A DNA stretch of 64,000 bases from Pythium myriotylum. Taxonomy: Eukaryota > Oomycota > Peronosporomycetes > Pythiales > Pythiaceae. The notes beneath the pieces were generated by a model. The model saw only the letters and a list, made by a program, of their open reading frames with translations. It was not told the origin of the DNA and did not search any database. Positions 10,205 through 40,782 of this stretch are shown piece after piece (the stretch's first letter is position 1; every line of letters starts with the position of its first letter). Where the stretch lies: NCBI GenBank assembly GCA_023091665.1, contig JALJCQ010000017.1, positions 496,001 to 560,000 on the forward strand, written 5' to 3'. A program made the translations under genes and the position numbers.

Positions 10205-10222
10205 GGCGAATGTGCGAATGAG
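10205..10222 (-). promoter_or_regulatory. Inr/FPR-like core promoter of PAN copy 2a
   Basis: Mirror of 11111-11128: CTCATTCGCACATTCGCC on the minus strand, about 70-85 bp upstream of the ATG. Confidence 0.45.
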
Positions 10223-11110: not shown

Positions 11111-11128
11111 CTCATTCGCACATTCGCC
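11111..11128 (+). promoter_or_regulatory. Inr/FPR-like core promoter of PAN copy 2b
   Basis: CTCATTCGCACATTCGCC about 70-85 bp upstream of the ATG at 11198, at the same relative position as in the palindrome 1 genes. Confidence 0.45.
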
Positions 11129-11197
11129 AACAACTACCAACCCTCCAACTCTGGGCCAGGGTCAAAACCAAGACCAAGACCACCCACCAAGAACGCC

Positions 11198-11827: not shown

Positions 11828-12059
11828 TACGTACGTATACGATTTAGAACCTTCCGTGGGCTAAGGGTTCCGCGCAGGATTCCGGCCAGGGGTGATCAAC
11901 TACTGCTTTCCATCAGCGCCGGACTGCAAATCCACGAATTCCACTTCCTGACCAAGCGATTTTGGGAACTATTACAGCAGAGTAGACAATGACATGTTGT
12001 GTTACGTTTGATGCGTGTTCATCTTTCCAGCGGTCTACTCCTCTCTAGCCCGTGACCTT

Positions 12060-13268
12060 CTAAGGGATGAGAAGGCTCACGGGAGTGCCGCACTGCGCGG
12101 ACTTGCCCGTGTACGTGAGCAGGCCCGTGGTCGGGTTGATGGTGAAGACCTGGATGTTGTTCGAGTTCTGGTTGGCGACAAGTAGGAAGTTCTTGTAGAC
12201 GAGAAAGCTTCGGGGTACCTGGCCACGAGTCGGCTCATGATCAAGCGCCGTGAGCTGGCCATTGCTACCAATCTTGAAGATGGCGATGCTGTCGTGGCCA
12301 CGGTTGGATGAATAGAGGAAGTTCCCGTCCTCGGACGTCTGGATCTCCGCACTCGACGACTGGCCTGTGAAGCCCACTGGTAGCGTCGAGATTGACTGTG
12401 TTGAGTTCCCCAATAGGCTGCCGGTTGAAGCTTCGACATTATACACACCAATGGTATTGCTGATCTCGCCAAGCACGTAAGCATACTTCTTGGTCGGATG
12501 GATCGCAATATGGCGAGGACCTGAGTTGTAGGGGCGTGAGATGAACGGAGTCTTCGCGTTTGGCACGAGCTTGCCGGACTTGGCATCTAGATTGTACTGT
12601 GCGACGCGGTCGCTTCCGAGATCCGCAGCCAGTACGCCTGTCGATCCTTTCCCGATCCAGTTCACGCTATGCATGTGCGGCACGTCGCGTCCAACTTTCA
12701 CATACTGGTGGAAGTCCGACGCGGCACCGAGGGAGCCGTTGGGTTTGACTGGGAAGATGCTGACACTGCCGCCGTTGTAGTTGGAGACGGTGGCAAAGTT
12801 TTCGTCCGGACTAACTGAAACATGAGCCGTGCCGTCACCGCCTGCCTCAACGTGGTTGATCTCGGTGAGAGTGCCCGATGCGTCATAGCTGATTGCGTAG
12901 ACCCACCCGGTGGCCGTTCCTGGCTTGAGCACCGACGGATCCGACACTTCGTTGACGGCGTAGATGACGCGCTTGCTCTTCAATCCCGCCAAAAACGTGG
13001 GGTTGAAGCCAAACGCCTTGGCGCCTACAGCAGTGAGCGAACCGTCGTTGGGGTTAAACTGGAACACATGGATGCCCTTGCCCGTGCCATTGACCCAGCC
13101 TTCGTCGCGCGAGTACGTGCCGGCGAAGAGAAGAACATTGCTTTGAACGGCGGTTGGTGCTAGCATCTTCCCAGAATTGGCGAGGACATCTTCGGTAGCA
13201 GCATCTTGTGACACAGCGGAGCGCACTGCAGCACCAGCGATCGCGAGAGCGAGGGTGATTAGCCTCAT
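12060..13268 (-). CDS. Secreted seven-bladed beta-propeller lactonase (6-phosphogluconolactonase-like fold)
   Basis: A 402-residue protein. The ATG at 13268 is chosen because it opens a signal peptide (MRLITLALAIAGAAVRSAVS) and lies just downstream of an Inr/FPR-like site. The body has the repeated blades of the PF10282 lactonase family: FAGTYSRDEG near the start, the HVSVSPDENFATVSNYNGGS blade, the PHMHSVNW and GPRHIAIHPTKKYAYVLGE segments, and SSAEIQTSEDGNFLYSSNRG near the end. Family members include bacterial 6-phosphogluconolactonase (Pgl) and fungal carboxy-cis,cis-muconate cyclase. A signal peptide argues against a cytosolic pentose phosphate role here, so the substrate is open. Its last third is duplicated at 8920-9273 in the left palindrome arm. 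Confidence 0.85.
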   Translation of the reverse strand: MRLITLALAIAGAAVRSAVSQDAATEDVLANSGKMLAPTAVQSNVLLFAGTYSRDEGWVNGTGKGIHVFQFNPNDGSLTAVGAKAFGFNPTFLAGLKSKRVIYAVNEVSDPSVLKPGTATGWVYAISYDASGTLTEINHVEAGGDGTAHVSVSPDENFATVSNYNGGSVSIFPVKPNGSLGAASDFHQYVKVGRDVPHMHSVNWIGKGSTGVLAADLGSDRVAQYNLDAKSGKLVPNAKTPFISRPYNSGPRHIAIHPTKKYAYVLGEISNTIGVYNVEASTGSLLGNSTQSISTLPVGFTGQSSSAEIQTSEDGNFLYSSNRGHDSIAIFKIGSNGQLTALDHEPTRGQVPRSFLVYKNFLLVANQNSNNIQVFTINPTTGLLTYTGKSAQCGTPVSLLIP

Positions 13269-13301
13269 TGGCAAAGGAGCGCGGAGATGGTGAGTGGAGC
13301 A

Positions 13302-13321
13302 GGTCGAAAATTGCAAAGTGA
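13302..13321 (-). promoter_or_regulatory. Inr/FPR-like core promoter of the lactonase gene
   Basis: TCACTTTGCAATTTTCGACC on the minus strand, about 35-50 bp upstream of the ATG at 13268; it resembles the oomycete Inr plus CAWTTT-type FPR. Confidence 0.4.
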
Positions 13322-14756
13322 CTCGCTCTCCGCGTTGTCAAACGATCGTGTGAGAGGCGGCGCAGAAGTCAACCACTCATCCGTTTACGAGGCGTCCAGA
13401 ATTACGACAGGCGGTTGATCTGAAAGAAATTTGAAGATTGCTGAGAAACGAGAAATATCGGATCGGCACTCGATCCATCTCGAAAACATTTAGTGATGGG
13501 GATTTGTAGGCCGGAGTGCAAGCATTTGCAGACCTACTTGGTGCCAGTATTCGATGGTACAAATCACTGATTGCACACACTCTCTGTCGAGGATTTGAAC
13601 CTGCATCGATGGGGAGATCTCCTAAAAGGACAAAGCACTCAAATGATGTTGTCTCCTAGCTTTGCGACAGTGGCGACATCATGGTGAAACAAATAAACAC
13701 ATTGTAATAAGCTGCGACGACAAAGTTCCGAAGACAACGGTATTCGGGGAAATGACTGGTATACTCGCCAAGGATTCCTTGACCGCCATAGGAACCAAAA
13801 AGATTTGACGACCATAGGAATCGAGAGAGGAATGCAGAACCAGCTGCCAACAACTGAGCGGGTCCCCCACATCCATTACAATTCTTCGAGAAGACTTCAA
13901 GGTTGTCATCATCATTACTCTTCGCGATCAAACTGTCGTACACCACCGAAGCCACACGCAATGCGGAACTTGATCTGCCGATCATAAGTCTAGGGTGGTA
14001 TCGATTGCATGACTTCCCATCACAACCTGGCTTCCAAGACCGCCACAAATCGTCACGAACAATACTTTCTCGTATCGTGGATAGCCGTGGTGTCAAATCT
14101 TCCCACTGACTCTCCGATAGTCATGCAAGTTGCTACGGATGACGTTACGAGTCGAACCAACGCGTTTACGCAGATTCAATGCAGGCATTTCCATCCAAGC
14201 TGTGATCGCCAAATTCTCTGCATGCTCCCGCGGGAGGATCGGTCGAGCGGCTACCGTTCAATGAGTATTTATCCATGGGAGGTACATGAAAAGTTCGCTT
14301 CTGCTGAATGTATCGTGTTGCAGTCATCCTTGCTCTCACACGCAGGCTCGGAAGACACGCAGCGCAAGTTCCATGGCCTCACGAAAGTCTAGTCAGCACA
14401 AGTATTGTACTATGTTTCTCCATATGGATGAGTCGAAAGTTCTGGGGATTGGTAGATACGACTTGAGTTCTCGTTTCATGGCTGCGACCGACTCCTCGTT
14501 CGATGCACAATACGTTTTGAAAGTTGGAGTCTTGCGTTACGTCGATACTAACAGCTAAAGCTAAAAATGCATGTGGGCACTAACTGTGCCTTGACGAACG
14601 AGGAGTGACTACACCAATGATCCGATGGGCAGACGAACTATAATAGCGATGGATTCGTCCATGTGCAATAGTGAGTGTGCTGTCCGACGAACACAGTCAC
14701 ACATACGGTTCGGACGCAAGGAGGAGGGTGCCGCTGTTACTGGTACGGTGAAGCCG
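13322..14756. other. Intergenic, no supported gene
   Basis: About 1.4 kb without a convincing coding frame. It contains a B-box-like GGTTCAAATCC on the minus strand near 13600 that does not fold as a tRNA, and a diverged copy (14518-14565) of a repeat also seen near 8441. Confidence 0.4.
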
Positions 14757-16020: not shown

Positions 16021-19000
16021 TTAATTCGTGCGAGCGGATCGTTCGAGACCCACGGAGTCGCGTAGTGTGGTGAAACGTGTCGTGCTGAGCGCCTTGGTGA
16101 GGATGTCAGCGAGTTGCTCGGCGGTGGGGATGTACTGAAGCTCAATGTCACCAGAGTCAATGCGTTCGCACACAAAGTGATGTCGAATATCTATGTGCTT
16201 AGATCGGGCGTGATAACCAACGTTGCGGGCTAGCGCGATCGCGCCTTGATTATCCTCATAGATCACGGTTGGTTCCAGTTCACGTGCGCCTAGGTCACGA
16301 ATAAGTTGTCGAGCCCATACGACTTCTTGGGTGCACAGGCTTAGTGCCATATACTCGGCTTCAGCTGAGCGGAGTGCAACAGTTTTCCGGTACTTGGATC
16401 TGAAGATCACCGGAGAACCAGCGAGGAACACCATCACTCCTGAAACCGACCTGCGGTCATCGACGTTGCTGCCCAGTCGGCATCGCTATAGGCACAAAGA
16501 CCTATTGACCTTCCCGACCTCCCACTGAAGGTCAAAGCCATGTCCTTTGTCGAGTGTAGATACCGTAGAACACGTATCCCAGCCTTCCAGTGTCCTTGTC
16601 CAGGCACATCAAGGAACCTGCTCAGATGGCATACCGCATAGCACACGTCTGGTCCCGTTGTCATGGCAATGTAGAGAAGACATCCAACCAATGAGCGATA
16701 CGGTCGCTTTTCCATAGTAGCAGTGTCGTCAGGGGTTGAAGGTGAATCTTTGCGACTCAGCTTCATGCCACTTTCGCATGGGTTATCGACACGCTTTGCG
16801 TCAGCTTGGTTGAAACGACTGGTCATGTCACTAATGCACTGCGCCTGTGATAGGGTGAGCACTCGAGCCTTGTCGTCATGTTGCAGCTCCATGCCCAGAA
16901 TGAATCGTACTCGACCGAGGTCCTTCAGTCGGAACCGCTCGGCAATGCAGGCTTTGATCTCGTTCACTTCATCGACAGTCTGTGCTGCCACTAGCATGTC
17001 GTCGACGTAAAGGCAGATGTAGACCGTCGAGCCATCACGAGTTCGAATGTAGACACACGGGTCAGCCGCAGATGGTTGGAACCCGACTTCTATCAGTACG
17101 GCATTGATGGTTTTGTTCCACACGTGCGCTGCCTGCTTTAGGCCGTATAGTGACTTGTTCAGTCGTAGCACCATGTTGTTGTCACACTCGATCCCATCCG
17201 GAATTTCCATGAACACTACTTCATCCAGAACGCCATAGAGAAATGCTGTGTCAACGTCGAACTGGTAGATCACGAATCCACGAGCACAGCAAGTGTGATC
17301 CGAATCGAGTTCATGTTTACGACGGGGGCATACGTCTCAAAGAAGTTCACGCCAAAACGCTGTCGAAACCCTTGTGCCACGAGGGGAGCTTTGTACCTGG
17401 CCACGTTGCCCTGCTCATTCTTCTTTATATTGAAGACCCATTTGGCACAGACCGTCTTCGTATCGGCTCCGCGAGCCACGATATCCCATGTCTGGTTGCG
17501 CACGAGAGAGTCAATCTCTTCTTGAATAGCTCGGCTCCACTCGTGATTGTTTGCTCCAGTTGTTGCTTCGTGATACGTGCTCGGAATACTAACATCGACG
17601 GCGTGCACGGCGGCCGCAAATGACCACTCTTCCCCCTCCTCGCCGCCCACGCGTTGATACTTCGTAGGCGGTTCTTCGTCTGAGTCGGTCTTACTTTCGT
17701 CATCGCCAGCGTTGTGGCCGTGAACAACAACTTGTCGATTGTTTGGATCATTTTCTGTGTCGTTGTGCAGCAACCGCCTAGCGTCCGTCGGCAAACTGTT
17801 CGGTAGGATACGTGTTCGTGACGATGTCGGTATCCGACGTTGAGGTGCCGGATGAAACACAATAACATCGTTCCTGTTCGTCGATGATGTTTCTGGGACC
17901 GGCCGGCCAATCGGACTGATGAGTTGTCCATTATCGTTGTGTGCATCAACGTCAGGTTCCGGAGCCACCAGGGGCATAGCCGCATCATCTTCATGGCTTA
18001 TCTCACCCTCATCCATTACAACATCGTCAACATGCTGCTGCGTGGGCATCGTCGACGATCTGGTAACGTTGTCCTGGACCAGCATTTGTTGGTGGAAGAA
18101 GGCATCTGACACGTCGGGTACATTTGACAACACGTTGATACCGCCGAGCTCCCGCTCGTATAAAACGACAGTCCTGGTCACCTTGACTTTGTTCTGCTCA
18201 AGATCGAGTACCAGGTAGCCTTTCCCATCTTCCGCGTACCCGAGGAGCAAACACTTGTATGCCTTGGGGTCAAGCTTAGTACGAAGCGCGGCGTCGATGT
18301 AAGCGAAACCTTCGCTACCAAAAACGCGGGTGTGCTCGAATGTGGGGACAATTCCGTAGGAGATCTCGATGGGTGTAGTGTCTGGATTAGCTGTGCTTGT
18401 CATTCGGTTGAGCAGGTATTCAGCACACTTCACCGCATATCCCCACCAGACTGTGTCAACTTCACGGTACATCATCATGCTTCGCGCCATTTCCATGATG
18501 GTTCTGTTGGTGCGTTCAGCGAGGCCGTTTTGCTGTGGAGTATATGGTACAGTACGTTGATGTACGATCCCGCCGTCGTAGCAGATCTTGGCAAACTTTT
18601 TGTTGACGAACTCCCCTCCATTGTCGGATCGAATGAAACGGATCCTAGCACCAAGCCGTCGCTCCATCATCTCTTTGTACTCTCTGAACTTTGTTGGTAC
18701 CGCACTCTTTGCCTTCAGCAGGTACAAGGTGATCAAGCGCGAGAAATCGTCGATGAAGCGTAGGATATACTTCGCACCGCCTTTAGACTTAGTCTTCATG
18801 GGCCCCATGAGGTCCGTGTGAACAAGCTCGAGTACACGTGTAGACTTAACGATTCCTCGAAATGGAGCCTTTCGGAATGGCGAGGCCGATTGCTTACCCC
18901 TCGCACATCCACCACAGACATCTTCACCCCGTTGAAGATCTTGAGGTAGGCCGTCACTTGCACATAGGAGTCGTCTGTAGTTGTCGTGGCTGACGTGTCC

Positions 19001-20284
19001 AAGTCGTGCGTGCCACAGGTTCCAAACACTCTCATGATGATGTTGTGCAACTTGTGCTTCCTGCACGACGACGTCGAAGTTGTACGTATTGTCCGTCTGC
19101 TTGATTTTGAGAACCACTTCACCATCCCTAATAATTCTGCAATGAGTCTGGCCAAAGAACACTTCGAACCCGCGCTGTACGAGCTTCGCCACTGACATCA
19201 GGCGTCTATCCAACCCTGGGATGTGGAGTACGTCTGATACGAGCGCTGTTGTATCGTTGGGGAGAACAAGTCGGACGTTCCCCATTCCGACTGCTGTGAG
19301 CGACTCCCCGTCTGCAATCTTTACTTCAACACTCTGGCGCAACGGCGTGTAGGTCTCAAAGTCCAACCGTGACGGACTCATGTGTGAGGAGGCACCACTG
19401 TCCAGGAGCCAGCCACTTCCATGAGTTCGCGTACTCGCCATGAACAGAACTTCACCACCACCGGTCTTGCCATTCTTCAGTCGCGGGCAATCTACCTTCT
19501 TGTGACCAACTTGATTGCAGTTGTAGCACCGTCCACTAAATGACTTACTTTCTGTCGGGTGGTGCCGACGACCACCACCATTTCCCTTGCGGAGATTCCT
19601 TCCACCCTTCTTGCGCGGCTGCATCTTGAATCGGGCTTTGAATGCCGCCTCTTCAGTCTTTTCAGCGTTCTCCAACTTTTTGTGCTCTTTCAGTAGTTTC
19701 TCCTTGACCTCAATGCGGGTCACCGTCTCCATGTTCTCAATGATCGAGACTAGCATGTCGTAGGTGCTCGGAAGACTACCGAGTAGGATGACGAGTTGCC
19801 GACGCTATTGCATCACCGACGCCATTGCATCACCGACAGCTTCCATCGCGACCACGAGTTCATCAAACCGGTCGAGGTGCGCGGCCATGTCCGATCCGTC
19901 ATCCATCTTGAAATCGTGGAGCTTACGCGTGAGCGCCACTGGGTTGTGTACGTTCGCACGGTTATAGTAGTCGCTGAGTGTCACCCACGCTTGTATTGCC
20001 GTTGTTGCACTGCGGATCTTGCCCTGGTGTTCCACCGCGATTCCCATCGCGATGATCGCGAGTGCCTTCATGTCGTTCTCCTGCCACTCCGCCGTCATCT
20101 CTTGCTCGGCCTTGACTACCACGATGTGGCTCAGTAGACCTTTTCTGGCCAACAGCATCCTCATATTGAACGACCAGTGGAAGTAATTGTCGCTTCCCAG
20201 AAGATCCTTCGATGACTTCATCGTTCTTGACTTGCTTTGACTTTCCGACCGTGTGTAGACTTGCAGGTGTAAGCTTGGGCTCAT
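16021..20284 (-). pseudogene. Copia gag-pol polyprotein, interrupted
   Basis: Read on the minus strand. Gag begins near 20284 (or at a later ATG, MKSSKDLLGS, near 20224). A TAG at 19807-19805 interrupts Gag before the ILLGSLPSTYD segment, but the same frame continues through the zinc knuckle (C-x2-C-x4-H-x4-C), protease, integrase and the start of reverse transcriptase to a stop near 17270. A frame change there leads to the main RT frame (17273-16434), and a second one near 16436 leads to the RNase H frame (16437-16021). The amber sits in a 16-bp tandem duplication (GCGTCGGTGATGCAAT twice). Catalytic motifs for all four enzymes are still readable. The closest family is Ty1/copia; no envelope-like gene is present. 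Confidence 0.93.
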
Positions 20285-26200: not shown

Positions 26201-26574
26201 GGTAGCACAAGTCGCAGAAGCCGAATCTGGGAAGAAGCTACCATTTTACTGGCCCGGTGATTTCCCTCAAGAGGGAAGCTTCCATGGGATCGGAACCTTG
26301 CAAGGCTGGGATTTTTTTTTTTTCTCACGGAAGCCTCAAGCTCCACGAGCCCTGGCTCCATGGAGCTGGGGTACGCCAGCTCGGTTCGCCCATCGGTTCT
26401 TTGTACCTGGATGAGATCCGTTCGAAAGGTACATGAAACATCGAGACAGTTCGACTGGATGGAATCTTGGCGCTATAAACACGGCGAGTGTGGTGGCGTC
26501 GGGTCTCTTGCAGGCCTTGACACGGACGCGTTCGTCTTCAGTTGCTGAAATCCCGTGAACACCTGAGACCGACG
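26201..26574. other. Intergenic, 5' side of a pseudokinase gene
   Basis: Holds a T13 run near 26312-26324 and presumably the promoter of the gene starting at 26575. No gene seen. Confidence 0.4.
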
Positions 26575-27933
26575 ATGGACCTTCGCACTGTGCTCAAGAC
26601 GCGTCTCCAGCTCGTGCAAGACTTGTGTGAATGGAGTGAATTAACGACTCCCCTCGATCTCCTCAACAGACTGGAACGCCTCCTCGACCGACTATCTTTA
26701 TCCACATCCAGCCAGGTTCTCGCAACGACCAGTGGGGCAGTGGCTGCGATCGAGTATCACCTCGCGCAGTTCCGTGACGCGAGTCTCGTCGAGCAACTGC
26801 TGACCCACGCGTCGTTCTGGGCAGCGATGCGATCGATTGGGGAAGATATCGATGGCTTGCACGAGGCACTCGGTCTGGACCCGTTTGAGTGGGAAGACAC
26901 GTGGGAGAATGACCGACGCAGCGCGTTGGAGAGACTGGAAGAGCAGCTGAAAGACGAGAGTGCATTGCGAGAGGACGTCCAGGGCACCGAGAAGGCGCGA
27001 GACGTAAGGATGCTTCTAAGTGCTGAGCAAGCCAACGTCAAAGCGAGCCGGTCGACGCTTCGGAAGGAGTCTCAGCTCGCTATCGAGAATGCAGATGAGA
27101 TCCTGAGTCGTCTGTACTGGACTGCTGACTTTGCTGTTCCGCTGTGGCTTGTGTCGCCAGCTGATGTCGTGATGGAAACGCGTCCGATCCACACGTGCTC
27201 GAGCGGTCTCATCTATCGCGCGCAAATGCACGATGAGACGCCCGTCGTCGTCAAAGTGCTGGATGCTGAATTCAAAAAGAACGATAGGCTTGCGAATACT
27301 GACGCCAAGAAGTCTGTGCTTGTGCAAGTGAATCTCTTGCGGAGGCTTCGCCATCGGAACGTCGTCCGATTCATCGGCGCCTGCCACGTATCCGCGCGTC
27401 CGTTCATCGTCAGCGAACGAGCTGCGATGGGGACCATGGCACAATATCTTGAGGCCACCAAGCCCGACAAGAAGAAGATCTGGCGACTCTTCTGCGAAGC
27501 TGCGAGGGGTCTGAAGTATCTTCATGACTGGGGCTTTGTGTGCGGTGACCTGACACTCGACAAGCTTCTCATTGGTGCTGATGGCCATGTGCGGGTATCC
27601 AACTTTGGGTTGCAGCGGTTGCCGGTCAACACAAAATCAAATAGCCCGATAGGAGCTTGCTTTATGGCCTCCGGGTGTGTTGACGACGTTTTGACTCCAT
27701 CATCCGACGTGTATTCATTGGGGATATTGCTGATTGAGGCTCTGAGTGGAGGTTCTCACAGCACAGATGCAGATTTGAGTTCAGGCAAGCGAAATATGGG
27801 GAGCTCCAAGCGGCCGGTCGAGTTATCTGAGAGCGAGTGGCGTCTGGTGGAGACTATGACGGCAGGTGACCCGTCGGAACGAGCCAGGCTCGGTGAGGTT
27901 ATCGAAGAACTGATAGCGTTGACGGCTAACTGA
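26575..27933 (+). CDS. TKL-type pseudokinase
   Basis: 452 residues from the ATG at 26575. The N-terminal 190 residues are helical and charged, possibly coiled coil, with no named domain. A protein-kinase-like domain follows (about residues 190-450): VVVKVL keeps the beta-3 lysine, RRLRHRNVVRFIGACH is the typical TKL alphaC/beta-4 region, and SDVYSLGILLIEAL is the alphaF Asp region. The catalytic loop reads CGDLTLDKLLI, without Arg of HRD and without the metal-binding Asn, and DFG is replaced by NFG. Catalysis is therefore unlikely (family rule); a scaffold or allosteric role is inferred. It is the first of three pseudokinase genes within 6 kb; the other two have different changes and share a zinc ribbon that this one lacks. 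Confidence 0.82.
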   Translation: MDLRTVLKTRLQLVQDLCEWSELTTPLDLLNRLERLLDRLSLSTSSQVLATTSGAVAAIEYHLAQFRDASLVEQLLTHASFWAAMRSIGEDIDGLHEALGLDPFEWEDTWENDRRSALERLEEQLKDESALREDVQGTEKARDVRMLLSAEQANVKASRSTLRKESQLAIENADEILSRLYWTADFAVPLWLVSPADVVMETRPIHTCSSGLIYRAQMHDETPVVVKVLDAEFKKNDRLANTDAKKSVLVQVNLLRRLRHRNVVRFIGACHVSARPFIVSERAAMGTMAQYLEATKPDKKKIWRLFCEAARGLKYLHDWGFVCGDLTLDKLLIGADGHVRVSNFGLQRLPVNTKSNSPIGACFMASGCVDDVLTPSSDVYSLGILLIEALSGGSHSTDADLSSGKRNMGSSKRPVELSESEWRLVETMTAGDPSERARLGEVIEELIALTAN

Positions 27934-28782: not shown

Positions 28783-30741
28783 CTACTGCTCATTCCGCAG
28801 CTGCGACAGAAACTGCTCCGCTCGTGATCGAACCCCTGAATCTTGAAGCTCACCACCAAGCAGCTTGCTGAGAATTTCGTCAGTACCAGCAAACTTGGCC
28901 ATTTGAGCGAGCTGAGGTTTGGTCACGAGTTTACCCAAAATCAGTATTGCATGGCGGAGAAGCTTCGGGGTTGCCGACTCGAGCTGAAGTTCTCCGACAA
29001 AGAGCGACACTCCGCCGCGCGAAGCCACAGCAGACAGCGCATACTGGTCAGTCTCAACCATATGCGCTAGCGTCTCGATCGCCAACTCCTTTTCTTCCAG
29101 CTCTCCGTCTTGAATTATATCGATCAGTTCCCGAATGTTCGCAGACTGATCACCCAAAGGAATCCGTACACCTCGACTCGCAAGTACGCTTAATAGATAC
29201 ACAGCATCGCGTTTCACCTTGTCATCTCGGTTATGCAGCGTTTCCGCAATCGGTTGTTCAAGGTTGAACGTCACTATGTAACTTTGAATCTCGGGATTAT
29301 CAGCAGCCAAAGCTGCCAGCGCTGACACGGCCGGTGCACTCGACTTGTCGTCTCCGTAAAGCTGAGCTGCGAGTTCCTCAACAACTCCAGCATGCCGCAA
29401 ACGGACCTGTGACGCTTGGCCAACGGATGCGAGCAGCGAAATCAAGCTGGCTGCAAGCACTTTGGCCTGTCGTTCGCCCGTCCTGATAAGCTCGCGAATT
29501 TCGTTGACAATGGATGGCTCGACCTTGATGACCTCGTTTCGCGCCGATTGCAGCGAGTCATCGTTTGTCTCACCAAAACGTGTGTGAAGGCCGTAAATCA
29601 CGGCATAAATGTAAAGTACGCATACCGCAGGATTGTCGGGATTCATCGCTGCATTAATCAACTTGTTGACTCCGTCATGCTCGCGGAGATCATTCCGAAT
29701 GCGTTCGTCCGCCAGTTTCGAGAGCAGTACCTTGACTGCCTCAGTTCTCTTCTCCAAGTCGGGATGGTCGCTCAAGTCACCGAGCAATGTGAGGACGAGA
29801 GTTTGGTCGTACTGGCCATATCTAGAACCTCTATCGCTCACTTGAACACCACATTTGGAACAAAAGATGGCCTTCGGCTTGAGACCGGCATAGCAGCGAT
29901 CACAGACACCCAATGCCGCTGCTACTGCCTCTCGCTCGCGGTCGGCAAAGCGTTTGAGCGTTGTAACAACGGTGGCGAGATCGAGACGTTCCTGAGGGTT
30001 GAGTCGAGCCATTTGCCTCACCAATTCCCAGCCTTCATCTGGCATGTTCGCTGGCTGCGGCGGTAGCTTACCATCCGAGATAAGACTCAACGCGTCTCGG
30101 GCGGCGCCCCTGTACGGGGGCTCACGAGTGAATGCCTCAATGATACACATTGCAAGAGAGTACACGTCTGAGGCAAAGTTCGCTTGGTACTCGAAGCACT
30201 CGGGCGCTTGCCAGTTCAAGGAGCCGAGCATGAACCAGCTCTGTTCGAGCGATTTGATCTCGTCCGAGCTAGTGATCTTGCGGCTGAGTCCAAACCCTGT
30301 GAGCTTGGCCGAACCGTCACCGGCAATCAGCACGTTGGCGAGTTGAAGGTTCCCATGAACGATCTGCTTGCTGTGGAGGTAGAGTAGTGCTTGGGCCGTT
30401 TCGAAGAGGAGCCGCCAAACGTTCTGCGCGTTTGCCGGCGACTTGTTCAGGTACTCGAGAAAGCGCCCGTTGGGAGCATCCTCACAGACCATGAACGGCG
30501 GCTGCACGGTGTGGCACGCGCCGTAGAGCGCCAGCACGTGCGGGTGGTGGAGCTGCGACCAGAGCTCCGCCTGTGGCACGAACTCGTTGTCGATCTGGTC
30601 GCCTTCGAGCTGTAGCGTGCGTACGACGACGTTCGTGGTGCCGAGCCATTTCCCGCGGTGGATGCCGCCGAAGATGCCGCGCGCGAACGGCCGCGCCGCG
30701 AACGTCACCTGCTCCGGCGCGAGGAACCACGGCGGCGCCAT
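28783..30741 (-). CDS. TKL-type pseudokinase with zinc ribbon and ARM-like repeats
   Basis: 652 residues in one exon from the ATG at 30741. Residues about 5-270 form a TKL kinase-like domain with three losses: the beta-3 lysine is Arg (VVVRTL), the catalytic loop is HGNLQLANVL in place of HRD, and DFG is GFG. The alphaF segment SDVYSLAMCIIEAF is retained. At about residues 285-305 there is a C-x2-C-x10-C-x2-C zinc ribbon (CDRC ... CSKC). The remaining 340 residues are helical ARM/HEAT-like repeats. The order and the same substitutions recur in the N-terminal part of the Roco gene that diverges from it, so the two are paralogues. A signalling scaffold role is inferred. In-frame codons upstream of 30741 are not ATG. 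Confidence 0.85.
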   Translation of the reverse strand: MAPPWFLAPEQVTFAARPFARGIFGGIHRGKWLGTTNVVVRTLQLEGDQIDNEFVPQAELWSQLHHPHVLALYGACHTVQPPFMVCEDAPNGRFLEYLNKSPANAQNVWRLLFETAQALLYLHSKQIVHGNLQLANVLIAGDGSAKLTGFGLSRKITSSDEIKSLEQSWFMLGSLNWQAPECFEYQANFASDVYSLAMCIIEAFTREPPYRGAARDALSLISDGKLPPQPANMPDEGWELVRQMARLNPQERLDLATVVTTLKRFADREREAVAAALGVCDRCYAGLKPKAIFCSKCGVQVSDRGSRYGQYDQTLVLTLLGDLSDHPDLEKRTEAVKVLLSKLADERIRNDLREHDGVNKLINAAMNPDNPAVCVLYIYAVIYGLHTRFGETNDDSLQSARNEVIKVEPSIVNEIRELIRTGERQAKVLAASLISLLASVGQASQVRLRHAGVVEELAAQLYGDDKSSAPAVSALAALAADNPEIQSYIVTFNLEQPIAETLHNRDDKVKRDAVYLLSVLASRGVRIPLGDQSANIRELIDIIQDGELEEKELAIETLAHMVETDQYALSAVASRGGVSLFVGELQLESATPKLLRHAILILGKLVTKPQLAQMAKFAGTDEILSKLLGGELQDSGVRSRAEQFLSQLRNEQ

Positions 30742-30969
30742 GATCAGCGAGACCGCCAACGCTGGCTGAATGGACCCCTGTCAACAAGTTGACCAGCTGC
30801 AGTTCACAAAACAAGGTTCATTCACAGTCATTTCAGTACACAAAGTTACTTTGAAAGTACCTAGCTATCGATCTTTCTATCTCCGTATCACCTCATTTTG
30901 GTAACTTACCAATCATTGTGCACCCAAATCTCGCTCCCCCTTCCATCTTCCGCTGTCCTTCGTCGTGCC
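30742..30969. promoter_or_regulatory. Shared divergent promoter of two paralogous pseudokinase genes
   Basis: 228 bp between divergent ATGs. CATTCACAG and TCATTTCAG near 30820-30833 and CTTCCATCTTCCGCTG near 30939-30955 could serve as starts. The head-to-head layout suggests co-expression. Confidence 0.4.
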
Positions 30970-33900
30970 ATGGACGGCGACGGCGTGGCCGCGCAGCCGC
31001 CATGGTTTGTGCCGCGCGAGCACCTCACCGTGAGCGACCTCATGTTCGCGCCTGGCCTCTTCGGCGGAGTCTACCGCGGCCGGTGGCTCCACACGACCAA
31101 GGTCGTGGTGCGCAAGCTCGAGCCGAACGACGACGACCCCAATCGCGACGAGATCGAGCGCCAGTTTCTGCGGCAGATCGAGCTCTGGGCGACGTTCCAC
31201 CACCCGAACATCCTCCAGATGTACGGCGCCTGCCACATCGGCACTCCCAAGTTCATGTTCTGTGAAGACGCTGTGCTGCGCGACATGGGCGTTTACTTGG
31301 CGAGATCGGCGATCCACCGGCAGCGCCTCTGGCGACTGCTTCACCAGGTCGCGCAAGGACTGCGGTACCTCCACAGCATCAATGTTGTGCACGGAAATCT
31401 AAACTTGAGCAGTGTTCTCATCGGTGGAGATAAATGCGCGCGTATTACGGGCTTTGGGCTGAGTCGGAAGGTGAAGACGAACGATCGTGTCAACGAGCTC
31501 GACGAAAGCTCGACGCAGGAGTTGTCGTTGAGTAAATTCGTGCCGGCGAGTATCGTGTACGGATCGACTTTTGAGTCAGACATTTATGCGTTGGCCATCT
31601 GCATTCTCGAAGCCTCCACTGGGCAGTCCCCATTCTCCAACCTCGCGCCTGATGAGATCCAGGATCTGGTTAGACGTAGAGAGTTACCAGAACGACCAAA
31701 AGACGCCCCAGACGATGCGTGGGAGCTTGTTGTCGACATGACCAAGGCGGATCCCGATGAACGGCTCAGCCTTGACGATGCGTTAGCTCAACTCAAGCGG
31801 TTGGCTGATCTGGAGGAGCTCCTGAATGACAAAGTGTGCGGCTGTGGGCTCGACCTAGATCCTGAATCAAAGTTCTGTCTGCAGTGCGGTGCTGAACAAG
31901 ATGAAGACCTCTCGATCCACTCACGTGAGGATATCAAAAGGTGTGTGCAGATGCTCGAAACGGCAAGTGAAGTTAGACGGATCAACGCGGCGAAGGCACT
32001 CGCCAACTACGCTTTTGACTCCTTAGATCGTCAGCAGAATGTTGCGGCAGCGAGTGGGATCACTCGATTGATTAAGTTGTTGAGGCATTCGAATGATGAA
32101 GTCAAAATACGAGCCGCACAGGCACTTGGTGCAGTTGTCTGCTTGAACGAGTCGCTTCAAGTTACAGCCGCGGACGAAGGTGCAGTGCAGGCGCTCCTCA
32201 AGACTCTGCGCACAGGCTCGAGGGTCGTTCAACAGCGTGTGGTCTGGGTTCTGTGCCTGGTCATCGACTCTGATGCGGTTGATCAACGCACAGCGCGGAC
32301 ACTACTTCAAGAAATGACGGAGTCAGGGGATCGCAGTAGCCTCCAAAACCCCATTCAGTCAAAGATGGCACCCACAGGACAAAGTCGATTCCATGTCGCT
32401 TGCTCCCAGGTCCTTCGCCTTCTTGAGATATCCAATCGAGAAGAGTTTTCATCAACAAAGTTCACAGACTTGGGTGCCTTGTTGTCATCTACCATTGAAG
32501 ATGGAGATGGAGGTCTGCTACGTTACCTCGTAGCGAAAGGTGCTAGACTCCGAGACTTCGACGATGTAAGTGTTACAACAGCAACTAGGATGTGGGGTGC
32601 CCATTTAACCGCTGGTTTATGTTCAATAGTTGTCGATACCACTTCACCACATCGCTTTGCGCCAGCGAAACTTCAAAGTTCTCTCTTTTCTCATCAAAAA
32701 TGGTGTTTCAGTGAATGCTGTTGGAGTGGTGGGTGAGGTGTTGTTCGCTTGGGATCGACCCAAAGATTGACGTGGCTCTTTGCCGTACCTAGGGAAAAGA
32801 CACGGCTCTACAACTTGCCATAAAACAAGGGGACAAATTGGTCGTCGAATTTCTTCTTCAGCACGGCGCAGACGTGTTCATCGTCGATGAGGTTTGTTTT
32901 GAATCACTTGGTTTTTCTGAAACCCATCGTTGAAATATTCGAATCTGTAGAATGAGTATTCTCCACTCTGCAATGCAATCTTCTCGGACGAAGCTGCCAA
33001 TCGAGGCGCTGAGAGAGCATACGATATTGTTCGATTGCTGTGTGAGCACGGAGCGAAATGGGATTCAAGCTGTAAGCAGCAGCGCCGAGAAGTCACCATT
33101 CGAAGACATGCTGGTGCGTCTTTAGCAGCCTGGCAACTGGGACTATCAATGTGCTCAATTTTCTGGTCGCGTGGGACGAAAATGGATGTCCCGGTGGAGG
33201 TCGTAAAACGAGGAGAAGATTCTGTCAAGACTTTCCTCGCGGAACGCCTGGCTACAAAAAATGATGAACTGGTTTATCGGCGAAAGATCTGCGTTGTTGG
33301 CCCGAGTATGTGGGGCAAGTCCAGCTTGGTTCGCTCACTTGTGACTGGAAGACCAAGTCTCGTCAACTTGAGCGACCGAACAATCGGTATAGATTTGTAT
33401 CCAATGGCATTCACCGAGGAAGACGACGGACATACCATCAAGCATGAGGCCACGATGTGGGACTTTGCAGGGCAGGACGTGTATCAAGTGGCCCATTCAG
33501 TGTTCTTCTCAGAGCGCACACTGTATCTGCTGTGCATAGACCTCGCTGCATACGCACGAGCAATTGAAGAGGCTAATCAAGAACATGACCAACGGATAGC
33601 CGAGGCAAAGTTATACCGTTTCACGATGGACCACATTTGCAACTGGGTGCGGCTAATTCTTGTTCGTCAACCTGATGCCGAGTTCTTTGTCGTCGGTACC
33701 AAGGCGGACAAGCTCACAGATGATCAGGTCAAGCGAGTGAAGCTGGAGCTACGGATTTGCCTGGGTGAGTTCCTGCGGGAGCTCGAGCGAGAGTCGAGTA
33801 CGACCATGCGGCCTGCGCCACAGCACGATGAGCATACTGTAGTCGTCGAGAAACGGTTTGCTCAGCTACGACGAAGTTTCAGCGAGTGCCTCGTCGTCTC

Positions 33901-36314
33901 TTGTGCGACGGTAGACGCGGTGACCGAGATTCAAGCCGCTGTCAAAGCTGCTCTCATCGCCAAACGAGGCTTCGAGATGCCTAAAACTTACACAAGCGTT
34001 CTCGAAGAGGTGCGCAATTTGCAACGCGATGCATCAAAACTCCGGTCGCCTGAGATGCGCAATAAGGCGCTAATCACGACCATGCGAACATTGTGTTCCA
34101 CTCTTGTTCGTAAGATCCCCAGCCTCACGTACGACCAGTGCATCAATATTTTGCGAACTCTTCACGACCTCGGAGACGTTCTCGTCTATGAGCAGATCCA
34201 CTCGGGCGTAGATTTCGTAATTCTTGACCCGACCGTGCTGATCGATTTCGTACGCGAGGTCGTAGATCACAACCACCAAGAAAGCGGACAGTACGACGAA
34301 CTGCGAAGTGAAGGCCTCCTAAGGCACTCGCAGCTGAAGAAATTTCCGCTGTGGAGCACACTGGATGACGATGAAGTCATTTATCTGATGAAGCTCTTGT
34401 TGCAGCAGAACCAGCTGGCGTACCCCGCAGATAATCAGTCGATGGATGCAACATCTGACCTCATCGTGCCGTCCTATTGGAAGGCCAAGGCAGAGATTGA
34501 GTCCGGAGAAGGCCCACATGCTGTGACTCGACTATCAAGTACAGCGTTTGAAGTCGGCTGGCAATACACAGTCCCATCCTCGGTCTCAGAGATCGTGTTT
34601 GATCAGTTTGCAGTTCAGAGTTACACAACGCTGTTTCCTCGATCAGTTGGGCCAACGTGGGTCTTAGTCAGCATCCGCGAAGAGTTCAATGCGACCATCG
34701 TGTTGATTCCTGGGCCTACACGGCATGACATAATTCGTCTTAGTGTGTCCGCGCATGGGAAAACGCGTGCGTGGGAGTGCATCCGCTTTTTCATCATGGC
34801 CATGGAGATTGTGTTGGCCGGGTACCCAGGGTTACATCCATCGCGACACATCATCGATGAAGGCGGCATCCATAGTGTAAGTGACGCAGTTAAGCTCTTC
34901 AAGGATGCCGCTGCGATGGGACGAGACATTACGCAGAGTCCCGAGTGGGCGTGGCTGCCTGCGGAGCTGGACTGGTTCTCTGAGAAGGCGTGGGAAAAGC
35001 CTGGTGTGCTGAAGGAGATTGCCATGCGTGCGAGTGTGCATCAAGTCGCGAAAGCAACAGATACGCTGAAGAATTTGGTTGTTTCCGGAGATAAGCGGAG
35101 GAGATTCCCGGCGTTGTGGACGCTTACCTATGCCGAGAACGCCAGCGTCGTCCAATTGAGAATGCTCAGCGACGAATCAGGAATTTGCTACCACGAACCA
35201 ATTTTGATACAAGTTCCTTCTCGGTTCCTTGCTCTGTATGGAGGCTGGATTCAGGTAAGCGAAGGTTTGAATGCTCGTCAACAAGCTGTGTGTAAAGTCG
35301 CATACGTGTAGACTGGGCTGTCGATCCTATCGACAATTTCCTCCACATTGATACCGATGAACCTAGTTCAAGAAGTCGCGGACCTCGCCAAGTCTGGTAA
35401 GCCTTGTCCTCTTTGATGTTTTTCGGTCATCTCCCTCAAACGATTGGCAATGCAATCACTGTAGCAATCGACGATCCTGTGCTACGTGCGCAGTCCATAC
35501 ACAACATGATCGGTCAGTTGGATCAATCTAGCGACGACTTCCAGCCCGCAAAGGATCGCCAGTGGTTTGAAGGCAGATCTGTGTACATGCTGCGTGAACT
35601 GCTTAAACTCCACAACGCAGAGTTTGATGAGCTCATGATCACAGAGCTCTCGAAACTTCAATGCGCGTTTACGCCCGAGGGATACTACGTTTGGGTTTCG
35701 AAAGACGAAATCAGAAACTCGGATGGACGGCTCACACCGTGTGACCAGGAAGACCTTTGGATCCCATCGTCACCAGGATCTTCCTCTGCTAGCACCATCT
35801 CTACAAGCGAGTCGGTTACTTCAACACGCGTGCAATTATTTGTGTTTGACATTAAAGGGCTCGACAATTGGGACTGGCACAAGGCGTATTGCCGATGGGA
35901 GATCGTGTACGACTCGGGCGCATCGTCCGACTTTGACCGCACAGTTAGCGCATCGAACAATCGCCCTTCGACGTGGAAGGAACCGTTCCGTGTTCGCAAC
36001 GCCAAAACGCTCGGCATGCTCCGAGGCGCGATTTTACGAGTCCAGGCAAAGCGCTCCAGTCGGATGTTTGGACTCATCAAGTACGCAAAGCCTTGGATAT
36101 CTTTCCTCAGACAAGCTAACGATCTTCCTGTTGTAACAGGGAACTTGGCAATGGACAAATTGATCTGAAAGACTATCTAGAAACAAATTACGAAGGAAGC
36201 GGACCGCACGAAGTAAGCTTCTCGATCCCGCTGGAATCGGCCTCTCATCCGCGACTTGCTGTCGAATGTGCAATCACATTCACCCTCCCGGATGAGAGTG
36301 CACCAGGCGCTTGA
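30970..36314 (+). CDS. Roco protein with N-terminal pseudokinase, zinc ribbon, ARM, ankyrin, ROC, COR and C2 domains
   Basis: Exons closing in phase are 30970-32565, 32630-32728, 32793-32891, 32951-33071, 33126-35254, 35312-35396, 35465-36080 and 36140-36314: 1640 codons, 1639 aa. A TKL pseudokinase (VVVRKL, HGNLNLSSVL and GFG in place of the Lys, HRD and DFG motifs) is followed by a zinc ribbon (C-x-C-x10-C-x2-C, about residue 290) and ARM-like helices. Ankyrin repeats span the four small exons (for example TALQLAIKQGDKLVVEFLLQHG). ROC: P-loop GPSMWGKSS at about 697-705, switch II WDFAGQ, G4 TKAD. COR follows, then a C2-like domain from about 1499 (VQLFVFDIKG to the C-terminus). In LRRK-type Rocos the kinase follows COR; here a dead kinase precedes it. 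GTP-dependent signalling is inferred. Confidence 0.87.
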
Positions 36315-36801
36315 GCATTGATGAGTGTTCTGAGATATAAATGCATTATCATCAGCGGCGTCCATGGGTCGAGATAAAATTCAACCGAACAACACCGCGA
36401 GTGGTTCAAACTCTGACTTGTTTTTAGGTTTTCGTTAGATGCAGGCAAAGAACCACAGTAACTTCTCAAGACGAAACTAGACACAGATATTCACAGTGTA
36501 TCGACGTAGGTAAGTCAAAATCTACTCGGGTACAGAATCGGTGCAAGTGATAGGGATGATCACAATGTGCTATCCCATCTCGGTAACCGAGAGGATTTGT
36601 CTGCGCTTGTGGAAGCCTGCCGACGCGGTGAGATCTCATTGGATTGAGGCAGACGCTTATCAGCAATCAAGACAGCGTGGATTCGAACTGAATGAGGTCG
36701 TAAAGATGGTTGGCCACTGCTCGATGCCCAGAAAGAAGGTTGATTGCATTCCAAGACTCTTGGCTTTGGCTAAGCGCTCGCGCAGTGTTCAACCTGAGCA
36801 G
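36315..36801. other. Spacer, probably holding the 5' exon of the BT1 transporter
   Basis: Plus-strand fragments here (for example from ATG 36710 or 36667) could supply the first exon of the next gene, but I could not find a phase-consistent donor. Nothing else is recognisable. Confidence 0.35.
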
Positions 36802-38486
36802 CCACGGACAGTGTCGAAAAGGCGGATCGCACGTCTCTCTCAAGCCTCGGGCATGCCAAGCTTCAAGTGGAGCCGGCCGGCTACAACTCGCTCAAGTCCC
36901 CTTTGGATGAAAACCTCGAAGTGGGTGCGCTGCGCGAAGGTGGCAGGCCGAACATCTACAGTAAGGAACACGTGGGAATCCTTGTCCATTATTTCGGTGC
37001 CGGCATGGTCTACAGCGTCTTCTACAAGCTCGTGTACCCCTTCTTGAACAACTACTTGCGCATGTCAGGCGTCGCGACCTCGTCGGCGAGCGTCTTAATG
37101 TCGCTGCCGTACACGCTACGCGTGATCTTCGGCCTTGTGTCCGATTGTTTCCCGATCGCAGGCTATCGCCGCCGACCGTACATGTTGATTGACTGGGGAC
37201 TCTGCGCTGTGTGCAGTGTAGTGATGGCCTGCCTGTCGATTGGCGAGCCGTATTACCCGGAACGCAAGTATGCAACGATGAATCCGAAGCTTCTCTCGGC
37301 TGACGTGCTGGCGACTTTCAACCGAGATGCTCCAGATTCGGGAACAAAGTTTGTGCTGCTTCTAATTCTCGCGAATCTCGGTGTCGTCATGGCTGGTGCG
37401 GCCAGTGGCGGCGTACTTGTCGAATTATCCCAGCGCGAACCGGAGAACGTGCGAGGTACGCTACAAACCATGATCTGGGTGACGCGAGACCTGGGAAATA
37501 TTGCTGCGTCAGTGCTCGTGGGCTTCGGTCTGAACAGTGGAGACTTTGGCGGGTCCTTCGACGGTTCGATTGGTGTGAATGCTCTCATGGCTATTTGCGC
37601 AGTTGTATCGGCGATTACAGCGGCATCTGCGTGGTTTAACATCACAGAGAGCGGCTTGAACGAGCGTCTCTCTATGTGGAAGGAGATCATGCGCCTCTTT
37701 GACCTCATACAGTACAAGGTCGTGTACTATGTCCTCGCGTTCAAGTTCTTCAAGACGCTGTTCGCGAACACGAGCGTGACCGCCGCAGCGCCGATTCGCA
37801 GTACGTGGGCCAAGGTCGAGCCGCTAAACAGTCAAATCGCGTCGATCTTGAGCTCGACCATTGCGACAATCTCGCTCATGGTCATCAAGCAGTACGGTCT
37901 GAGCTGGAACTGGCGCCTCATTATCATCACGGCACAGATCGCGGTCGTGTTCATCGACGTCTTTCCGACCTTCTTCACGATCTGGAATGTCTACAGAAGT
38001 CAGTGGTTCTGGCTCGGCGTGCCGCTTTTGCAAGAACTTCCGAGTACCTTCAGCTTCATTGTCTCGACCTTTTGCATGGTTGAGATCATGGACAAAGGCA
38101 ACGAAGCCGCGTTTTACGGCCTCGTGTACACGGTCTCGTCCCTTGCATCACCCTTTTCAACAGTCATTTACAAGCAGGTGGATGCGAATTTTGACATTGC
38201 TCTGGCCGACATCCAAGTGGATGACACGCACGTGCGCACACAAGTCACCTACGCATACCTCTTCCAGTACGCCATGCAGCTTTTCTCGCTCGTGTTCGTG
38301 GTCTTCCTGCAGAGGCAGAAGGCCGAGATCCAGCAGATGAAACGCGACGGCAGCAAGAGCTTCGCTGTGGGCGTCATAACCGTTGTGCTACTGGTCTTCG
38401 TATTCGTCTGGTCCGTGATGACTAACCTCATGTCGATCTTCCCGTCAACCTCATGTCTCGTCATAGCCGGTGGTAAAGGTTGCTAG
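36802..38486 (+). CDS. BT1/FBT-family (folate-biopterin transporter type) membrane protein
   Basis: The frame is open from an AG acceptor-like site at 36800-36801 to TAG at 38484-38486, 560 residues plus a split first codon. No in-frame ATG lies at the expected place, so a short 5' exon upstream is assumed and left unresolved. The body is an MFS-like protein with about 11-12 membrane spans, starting with EGGRPNIYSKEHVGILVHYF and VYPFLNNYLRM. The LRVIFGLVSDCFPIAGYRRRPYM motif between TM2 and TM3 is typical of the BT1 family (cf. plastid and trypanosomatid folate/biopterin transporters). In oomycetes the family is expanded; the substrate of this member is unknown. It localises to membranes. Confidence 0.85.
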
Positions 38487-38739: not shown

Positions 38740-40518
38740 CTACCACGTATTCTCGCAGCAAGCCGAGTGCGCTGTTGGCTTCGTCGACTTGCTCTTGATC
38801 TTTCCATTCGTCAGTTCGCACTTCTCAGCAACTGCGCACGGCGGAAGCACGCCCCGCTTCCTCATGTCGGCAACAATCGCATTAATCCGAATGCCCGCAT
38901 TGTACTCGCTCTCACCCCTAGTGTCATTACTGATGCTGCCGAACATGTAATCGACCAGACTCGAGTACCATCCCGAGGGCTGCCCCAAGGCGCCACCTCG
39001 CATACCCGTCCCTGCATGATGTAGCGCAACGACTACGTTGTCTCGCTGGCTAATCACAGGCGAACCAGAGGACCCAGGCGCCGTGTCGGCGTTGTACCAC
39101 ACACTCCCATTCGCGAACGATAAGTCCACGTCCCCCACGATACCGTCACTTGTATCGTCTCTCAAACTCGAATTTGCCATACGAATTGTTGCGGGCTTGC
39201 CATCCTTCACGGATGCAATCGTTTTGGGTTCGCCATTTGGATGCTGTGGGATGTAAATGGCTTCGCCGTCGACTGGGCCGCTCTCACGGAGAGTGAGATA
39301 GCCAAATTTCTTTGCCAGGTCCTCGCTTCGCGAGCTATCTGAGCTGGGGATCAGACGCAGGAGACAGTAATCAAGCGACTCGCTCGCCGCAACAATGGCA
39401 ACTCGCGTTGCGTCGATCTCCCCCGCTCGCTCGCCAGTTGTGCCCGTGACGTTGCAGGTCTTCGACTCGGCCATGAAGTTGACGGTCGCTTGTGTCAGGT
39501 AGGACGCGCCACGGCCATCGCTATCTCCAGAAGTGGATGTTGACTGATCTACAGAAGGCACCGCTGAAGGGATACTACTCGCGTTCGTCAAGTTTTGACG
39601 GCGCAGCATCGAAGCCTGAGCCCGAGGGATGGGCCCGCGAGAGCGGCCTGTCAACTCGAAGAAGCAATGGTAGTTCGTGAGCATGTGATTGCCGCGTCCG
39701 ACGAGCCACCCCGTACAGAACGTCCAAGATCCGGTACCTGCCGGGTTGTCTGACTGCTCATCATGAGCATCTTCACTGCCGACGGTTCCATCACTTCCCG
39801 ACATGCTATCGGGTAGCCGCGGACGATTGAGGGGGCGTTGGATCATAAGTCTTGCGACGCTGCGTGCCTTGCTATACCACTTCGGCTGGCTTGTCTTGTA
39901 GCAAATCGCAGGCTTCATTTCATTCCTCGCTCCAATCGTACTCTCCAGCGGTTCGCTCTCGCCCACGCAGTCAGCACAATCTTCATCGCTTCTTCGAGAC
40001 CGTCGCCATGGGAGGAATCCGTATGTGTATGAGTCCACGACTAGCACCGCGTTATCCATCTGCTTGCGATCGATTGGGAGCACTAAGGTCGTGAGGCTTG
40101 GCCAGTATTCGATCACTACCCGATTTCCAAGCGTAAGAAACGGGTGGTTCCATAGAATGGAGCGTGGGCGCATTTGTCTGGCGACAGATTGGTTACTTGC
40201 AGCGATCGCGACTTGAGTAGAGTTGCTGGGATTTCGGATCACGACTCGATCACCAGGTAGCAAGGCGATCTCACGGATATTCACGGCCATGAGCACTGCT
40301 CCAGGCTGGTAGATCTGGCGAACTTGTGGGACTTGGCGACGAGGAAACACCGTGAACTGTTGACGAGCTTCTTTCTCAGCGTACTCGTGGACGGTGATTT
40401 TGAGGGTGGGGTCATACGGCGTAAGGGGAAGCGACTCTGTGGCACCACGGATTGCACTTTCGCTGATGACGGCTTGCAGCAAGAGAACGAGGGCGACTAC
40501 CACCCAGAGAGATGACAT
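38740..40518 (-). CDS. Secreted PA-clan (trypsin-like) serine protease
   Basis: 592 residues. The ATG at 40518 is preferred over one at 40719 because it opens a signal peptide (MSSLWVVVALVLLLQAVISES). A large N-terminal region of about 240 residues has no named domain. The protease part has the PA-clan triad: His in MLTNYHCFFE, Asp in LDYCLLRL and Ser in TAPGSSGSPVIS, with the glutamyl-endopeptidase/PF13365-like spacing and a YIPQHPNGEPK strand. All three residues are present, so it is predicted active. Many NxS/T sites support an extracellular location. It might act in nutrition or at the host interface. The neighbour on the same strand (40783 onward) is unrelated. Confidence 0.83.
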   Translation of the reverse strand: MSSLWVVVALVLLLQAVISESAIRGATESLPLTPYDPTLKITVHEYAEKEARQQFTVFPRRQVPQVRQIYQPGAVLMAVNIREIALLPGDRVVIRNPSNSTQVAIAASNQSVARQMRPRSILWNHPFLTLGNRVVIEYWPSLTTLVLPIDRKQMDNAVLVVDSYTYGFLPWRRSRRSDEDCADCVGESEPLESTIGARNEMKPAICYKTSQPKWYSKARSVARLMIQRPLNRPRLPDSMSGSDGTVGSEDAHDEQSDNPAGTGSWTFCTGWLVGRGNHMLTNYHCFFELTGRSRGPIPRAQASMLRRQNLTNASSIPSAVPSVDQSTSTSGDSDGRGASYLTQATVNFMAESKTCNVTGTTGERAGEIDATRVAIVAASESLDYCLLRLIPSSDSSRSEDLAKKFGYLTLRESGPVDGEAIYIPQHPNGEPKTIASVKDGKPATIRMANSSLRDDTSDGIVGDVDLSFANGSVWYNADTAPGSSGSPVISQRDNVVVALHHAGTGMRGGALGQPSGWYSSLVDYMFGSISNDTRGESEYNAGIRINAIVADMRKRGVLPPCAVAEKCELTNGKIKSKSTKPTAHSACCENTW

Positions 40519-40782
40519 GCGTACTCGTTTGGACAGATCACAAAGTGAACTTGGAAGGCGATCGACGTCGTCCTCGGACCGATGCCGTTTCCCAGGTGTC
40601 TGAGACGAGGGTCCAACTGCCTGATTTGAAAGTGGTTTTCGAACCGATAGCGACTGGTATGTCTCCGAGTGCAAGATGTAGTCGGATGTACACAGACGAT
40701 CTTTGAGATAAAACAGCATGGACCGAGGAACGTCTTTTGTCTCTGTTGATCGTCGCTGCCTAGTGTTCCTGGTAGTGGAAGG

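Follow-up and report, generated by a model that had tools for sequence, protein, structure and literature searches.

According to the part of PMC6337361 consulted here, Roco proteins fall into three groups, and the DAPK1 group (Roco group 3) is the sole one in which a kinase precedes RocCOR and is exclusive to metazoa. The consulted part of a brown-algal study (PMC11378527) describes oomycete Rocos with N-terminal ankyrin repeats and, across several SAR species, gives at most four Rocos per species; it also mentions kinase domains at the N-terminus "in different organisms", to which that part attaches no names. In the P. infestans kinome (PMC3019232, in part), catalytically inactive TKL members are described, and the word Roco is absent from the main text. 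Here we analysed a window of 64,000 nucleotides (C17:496001-560000) from the genome of Pythium myriotylum (58.7 Mb, 55 contigs), in which an eight-exon gene at 30970..36314 is predicted to encode, in this order, a kinase-like domain, a degenerate zinc ribbon, ARM repeats, ankyrin repeats, ROC, COR and a C2-like end.

DAPK1 resembles the predicted protein in having an N-terminal kinase before ROC-COR and no LRR (PMC6337361, in part). The first-pass annotation of this DNA, which contrasted the gene with LRRK/Roco kinases whose kinase lies C-terminal to COR, left out this case, and its contrast is incomplete to that extent. On the other hand, DAPK1 is an animal protein with an active calmodulin-dependent kinase and a C-terminal death domain, whereas the Pythium protein is non-animal and combines a TKL-type pseudokinase with the zinc ribbon, ARM repeats and C2-like end. 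The ankyrin repeats of DAPK1 also lie between kinase and ROC. Compared with LRRK1 and LRRK2, the protein has no LRR or WD40, and its kinase is at the opposite end and devoid of catalytic residues.

Our preferred explanation, which we favour by a modest degree of belief, is that a gene fusion produced one protein (under this reading called the fusion protein below) acting as a GTP-switched scaffold with a pseudokinase docking surface, whose DAPK1-like order was reached independently and which is not a DAPK1 or LRRK orthologue.

Gene structure and domain content

A scripted join of the eight exons gave 1638 or 1639 residues plus a stop codon, with no internal stops. The two lengths result from two usable donors of exon 2 (exon end at 32725 or 32728), and a third donor (exon end at 32732) breaks the frame. 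All seven introns are GT...AG and 54-68 nt long. The eight exons with matching phases and 1639 codons described previously could be reproduced, with the residue number depending on the donor, and the observation of a kinase-first reading frame is confirmed.

Exon 1: 30970..32565, + strand, TKL-type pseudokinase (residues 15-280), degenerate zinc ribbon (~288-310), ARM (~319-490) and first half-ankyrin (~498-532); from Pfam, motif table, AlphaFold2 (AF2) and alignment
Exon 2: 32630..32728 (alternative end 32725), + strand, one ankyrin repeat; splice join and Pfam
Exon 3: 32793..32891, + strand, one ankyrin repeat; splice join and Pfam
Exon 4: 32951..33071, + strand, ankyrin repeat; splice join and Pfam
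Exon 5: 33126..35254, + strand, ROC GTPase and COR, a large exon common to paralogs; Pfam, genome search and fold matches
Exon 6: 35312..35396, + strand, beginning of the conserved C-terminal region
Exon 7: 35465..36080, + strand, conserved C-terminal region, then the beginning of the C2-like domain
Exon 8: 36140..36314, + strand, remainder of the C2-like domain, then the stop codon

Exons 2 and 3 correspond to one phase-0 ankyrin repeat each, and by eye the Roco paralogs show this pattern as well. Pfam models above their cut-offs included HEAT_2/Arm (HEAT_2 at residues 326-428, E 3.7e-8), ankyrin models over 539-636 (best E 4.3e-12) and Roc at 692-783 (E 2.3e-13), and COR-A at 972-1089 (E 2.5e-8) scored 34.4 bits against a cut-off of 35.3, i.e. 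0.9 bits under it. Direct reading found the ROC motifs GPSMWGKSS, DFAGQD and TKAD intact, as previously noted for the P-loop, DFAGQ and TKAD, and G58, G63 and K64 are invariant in our alignment A2. The predicted ROC-COR fold aligns with LRRK2 residues 1305-1922. With GTP motifs intact in ROC and COR directly after it, the predicted product belongs to the Roco GTPase family. A search of the PDB with A2, which contained whole ANK-Roco proteins, was swamped by ankyrin chains, and a scan of NCBIfam yielded nothing but matches far under cut-off.

The zinc ribbon scored 15.4 bits in Pfam against a cut-off of 25; its second knuckle is CLQC, and the first is CGC where relatives have CxxC. For the C-terminus, Pfam returned no C2 match at E <=1 in the fusion protein. 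One of six scanned C-terminal or whole proteins, P0022 of Pythium oligandrum, did match C2 (3.7e-9), and a profile including P0022 showed a weak similarity to dysferlin C2 domains (E 0.011-0.036). Thus the C2-like end claimed by the first-pass annotation finds no direct match and keeps a faint C2 likeness through this profile, and its suggestion of docking by zinc ribbon and C2 appears weak, given the shortened first knuckle and the sub-threshold C2. Death domain, LRR and WD40 had no Pfam match at E <=1 in the fusion protein, and no kinase was found by Pfam after COR.

The N-terminal pseudokinase and its relatives

The kinase domain matched Pfam at residues 28-273 (E 4.5e-34), with PK_Tyr_Ser-Thr as the best model. 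R48 occupies the position of the beta-3 Lys, Q69 that of the alpha-C Glu, N143 that of the HRD Asp, S148 that of the catalytic-loop Asn and G161 that of the DFG Asp; the loss of the beta-3 Lys, HRD and DFG noticed before therefore extends to alpha-C Glu and catalytic-loop Asn. We compared 48 kinase rows, taken from this genome and from database matches and representing 47 distinct sequences: all five residues were kept in 33 and none in the fusion-gene kinase, and 13 others had changes at one to three positions or, in one row (P0106), gaps. From these replacements, the N-terminal kinase is probably dead. Restoration of a canonical catalytic loop by alternative splicing was rejected, as in this gene model a single exon contains the entire domain and the changed residues were read directly in it.

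The AF2 model (mean predicted local distance difference test score 75) had a confident kinase fold, with kinase and ARM high and residues 171-188, 453-475 and 487-532 low. Foldseek found it similar to tyrosine kinases, with a template modelling score of ~0.8 by the length of single-domain targets, and of 2933 PDB matches to profile A1, the best 60 consisted almost entirely of Abl, Syk, B-Raf and kinases like them. These matches and the best Pfam model lean against a CaMK type. The earlier TKL label agrees with the best Pfam model and with the name of P0105, a relative in Globisporangium, "Tkl protein kinase".

The closest relative is the adjacent, divergently transcribed gene of a local cluster:

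26521..27930, + strand, third family kinase of the cluster, partly degenerate: DFG reads NFG, the catalytic-loop Asn is replaced by Lys and the alpha-C Glu by Gln
28786..30741, - strand, sister gene of 652 residues with pseudokinase, zinc ribbon and longer ARM and without a Roco part (alignment, tree, Pfam)
30742..30969, 228 bp separating the divergent start codons, probably a promoter region that both genes share

The sister is 39% identical to the fusion gene over 368 alignment columns and 45% over the kinase domain. The kinase tree pairs them with a Shimodaira-Hasegawa-like approximate likelihood-ratio test (SH-aLRT) value of 99, the fusion kinase being on a long branch; this tree and the ROC-COR tree below were quick searches with SH-aLRT support alone and did not include animal DAPK and LRRK. 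The sister keeps one of the five residues (the Asn), and its other four replacements (R, Q, N, G) are identical to those of the fusion kinase. Because both genes carry the same four replacements, catalytic loss probably predates their split, since when both frames have stayed open, and sequencing error at these positions was rejected on the same ground. The frame at 26521-27930 stops directly after its kinase domain. A motif 78 bp before the fusion-gene ATG, CTCATTTT, resembles the oomycete initiator; in a + strand scan from 30500 to 36400 (5.9 kb) two such motifs occurred against ~1.4 expected, which is near chance, and the second (33154) lies inside coding exon 5.

The long branch, and the failure to find an orthologue in other species among scored candidates, would also suit a single protein whose N-terminal kinase is a functionless, decaying passenger. 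We regard this as rather improbable, since the exon has kept 532 open codons and a confident predicted kinase fold, the four replacements are retained in a sister of such limited identity, and kinase modules occur 5' of Rocos at several loci (see below).

Kinase-Roco arrangements and descent

Database searches gave the nearest named proteins in Pythium oligandrum, Phytophthora citrophthora, Globisporangium splendens and Nothophytophthora. In one protein search 103 of 7988 scored candidates passed, none covering >69% of the query; in another, 50 of 7987 passed, none with Roc among the Pfam matches listed. Domain-by-domain mapping of 26 matches placed a family kinase before ROC in none of them and after COR in nine P. 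oligandrum proteins; in P0086, an unnamed protein, kinase matches follow ROC, and P0015 is without a kinase in this mapping. At least 16 named Roc-COR proteins of P. oligandrum were among the matches listed. The architecture was not described in the titles or abstracts found, a level of search with most subscription journals outside its scope. The previous remark that no described protein of this order was known accordingly holds for the scored candidates and at title and abstract level.

Three sets of relatives share parts of the protein. The nine P. oligandrum ANK-ROC-COR-kinase proteins (P0011-P0014, P0016-P0020) have a related ROC-COR and a related kinase (26-33% identity), but the kinase is C-terminal as in the LRRK order, and the five catalytic positions are kept in eight of the nine (not in P0018); the mapping gave no zinc ribbon or ARM match in them, and ankyrin repeats matched those of the fusion protein in some. 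Kinase-less oomycete ANK-ROC-COR proteins (P0001-P0004, and paralogs L040-L048 and L054 in this genome) have the closest ROC-COR, up to 44% identical, and share the C-terminal region; a family kinase was not found in P0001-P0004, in the 1.5-kb flanks of the ten paralogs, or within 5 kb among scored candidates. Stand-alone kinase-zinc-ribbon-ARM genes (28786-30741 and L011-L013) have the domain order of the 5' half with 34-41% identity by alignment, but their frames are without a Roco part, and L011-L013 keep all five catalytic residues. The first-pass annotation noted neither the sister pseudokinase next door nor this stand-alone type, to which the 5' half belongs.

Our searches of the P. myriotylum genome scored the best 81 of 552 kinase-exon and the best 63 of 85 ROC-COR candidates, so that counts and absences are bounds. 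With 74 of 94 kinase-exon matches used (19 ARM-only matches and one kinase fragment were dropped), the kinase preceded a Roco within 6 kb on the same strand in eight pairs (six loci, including the fusion gene), one pair was divergent (the sister) and none had the kinase downstream. Within 10 kb the numbers were 10 upstream, one divergent and one downstream, which is suggestive of an upstream bias of family kinases near Rocos. One locus, L064 (C14), has an unbroken frame of at least 1059 residues with kinase at 198-432 (E 1e-28) and Roc at 510-599 (E 4e-13); the frame passes the 5' edge of the locus examined, and 1059 of 1122 residues were read. Its COR region matches the fusion protein (28%, E 1.2e-30), with no Pfam COR at E 0.01, and its kinase keeps four of the five catalytic residues (K, E, D and the DFG Asp).

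Three side observations concern this gene set. The Roco expansion is large, at least 51 merged places in the whole genome matching the ROC-COR exon (fragments included), mainly at C12 3.6-4.14 Mb, C14, C17, C24 and C29; this number and the 16 or more P. oligandrum proteins compare with the maximum of four that PMC11378527 gives per species for several SAR members. At L019 (C30:57115-58118), ankyrin frames and a degenerate ROC (GANCTSSI at the P-loop position) begin where a kinase frame ends, possibly a pseudo-GTPase adjoining a kinase with intact residues. At L069 (C24:1006900-1009900), a kinase followed by post-COR-like and C2-like stretches, a repeated Cys/His-containing unit and ankyrins was seen by eye just before a double ROC-COR frame.

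The ROC-COR tree groups the fusion protein with kinase-less P. citrophthora ANK-Rocos (97). L064 lies elsewhere in it, and a third clade (100) consists of the Rocos of P. oligandrum with a C-terminal kinase. The kinase tree separates the P. oligandrum kinases, as a single clade (100), from the fusion kinase and its sister. L064, long-branched in both trees, is likely to represent a fusion independent of the one described here. Membership of the DAPK1 or LRRK subfamily by descent could be proposed, because DAPK1 has its kinase, and LRRK2 its ARM and ANK, before ROC-COR (PMC6337361, in part). We consider it highly improbable, given the missing death domain, LRR and WD40, a kinase closest to that of the neighbouring gene, and the grouping of ROC-COR with kinase-less oomycete ANK-Rocos in trees of non-animal sequences. 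For LRRK, descent was rejected on the kinase position and both of these trees.

One gene or two, and implications

The main risk to the fusion is that two adjoining genes are present: a pseudokinase-zinc-ribbon-ARM gene ending within intron 1, and an ANK-ROC-COR-C2 gene starting from an internal ATG near the end of ARM. Both halves are known as stand-alone genes, and on C30, where a kinase frame closes at 57122, an ankyrin frame opens at 57115 with no clear join. Exon 1 is, however, a single open frame from the kinase through the first half-ankyrin, and no stop codon separates the halves. An alignment to residues 283-532 took in six relatives of the 5' half. In L011-L013 (kinase, zinc ribbon, short ARM) the match stops at about their own residue 428-451 and a stop codon follows 40-54 residues on, which, in the absence of indels, projects to about residue 482-491 of the fusion protein, whose first predicted ankyrin helix begins at 498. 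As these stops fall near the ankyrin start, exon 1 resembles a short stand-alone gene whose frame, having lost its stop codon, continues into exon 1 of an ANK-Roco gene. The ~7-16 codons between the expected end and the helix leave scant room for a promoter, and the exon 1 scan had no initiator-like motif; the motif at 33154 stands just before an ATG, though within coding exon 5. L064 shows that kinase and Roc can occur in one fused frame.

Several points weigh against the fusion. The coding signal is weak at residues 452-505 (-0.05 bits/codon, compared with a median of 0.13 and a minimum of -0.11 in exon 5 windows and -0.24 to -0.64 in introns, first frame), AF2 confidence is low in this same join region, and an ATG in good context there could begin a shorter ANK-Roco. 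If intron 1 were retained, the frame would stop at 32736 and yield the kinase half alone (588 residues). Tails are longer in L017, L020, L025 and the sister, and the expected end of the 5' half is therefore not uniform across the family. Some kinase-Roco loci are probably tandem copies, their counts come from best-scored candidates, and the pair within 10 kb with a downstream kinase departs from the pattern. Finally, the gene model is a prediction from genomic sequence, and no full-architecture homologue that would confirm the join was found among scored candidates. We nevertheless judge the two-gene alternative unlikely, and the frame and phases of the exons, the L011-L013 stops, the L064 frame, the upstream kinase-Roco pairs and the fold matches count for a fusion. 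As a separate observation, 32566-32736 could serve as a splice switch between a 588-residue kinase-zinc-ribbon-ARM form and the fused protein.

The window also contains the following features, identified by Pfam:

6149-7309, - strand, subtilase
12063-13337, - strand, 7-bladed lactonase
36798-38483, + strand, BT1 family
38743-40782, - strand, trypsin-like peptidase

Open frames at 9473-10399 and 10934-11860 mirror each other with the same lengths (232 and 297 residues), which suggests an inverted duplication; the frame at 9509-10399 (- strand) has PAN domains. A piece of a Copia-type retrotransposon polyprotein lies at 17273-19804 (- strand).

If the fusion is accepted, a stand-alone TKL-type pseudokinase-zinc-ribbon-ARM gene would have been joined to exon 1 of an ANK-ROC-COR-C2 gene, giving a single protein. 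ROC-COR would switch conformation or oligomeric state with GTP, and its state would govern the exposure of the pseudokinase surface. The pseudokinase would not phosphorylate but may offer a surface for docking or allosteric control, its most likely partners being active kinases from the same large family, much as pseudokinase HER3 acts with HER2, a pair named in PMC3019232 (in part). ARM and ankyrin repeats may hold partners, and the C2-like end may place the complex. Overall, the interpretation in the first-pass annotation is partly supported, and its suggestion that regulation may run in a different direction is conjectural. A broader and more doubtful proposal is a Roco class of this genome with the kinase 5' of ROC-COR that was assembled repeatedly and independently of DAPK1 and LRRK, in which the GTPase here would command sister kinases in trans via a dead copy.

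A true fusion would mean that the kinase-first order also exists outside metazoa, contrary to PMC6337361 as far as consulted. How the state of the ROC GTPase is communicated to the kinase is an open problem for LRRK2. With a kinase that is N-terminal and probably dead (this gene), N-terminal with four of five catalytic residues (L064), C-terminal (P. oligandrum) or not found (close paralogs), these oomycete proteins form a natural domain-swap series for examining what the ROC-COR switch requires of a kinase.

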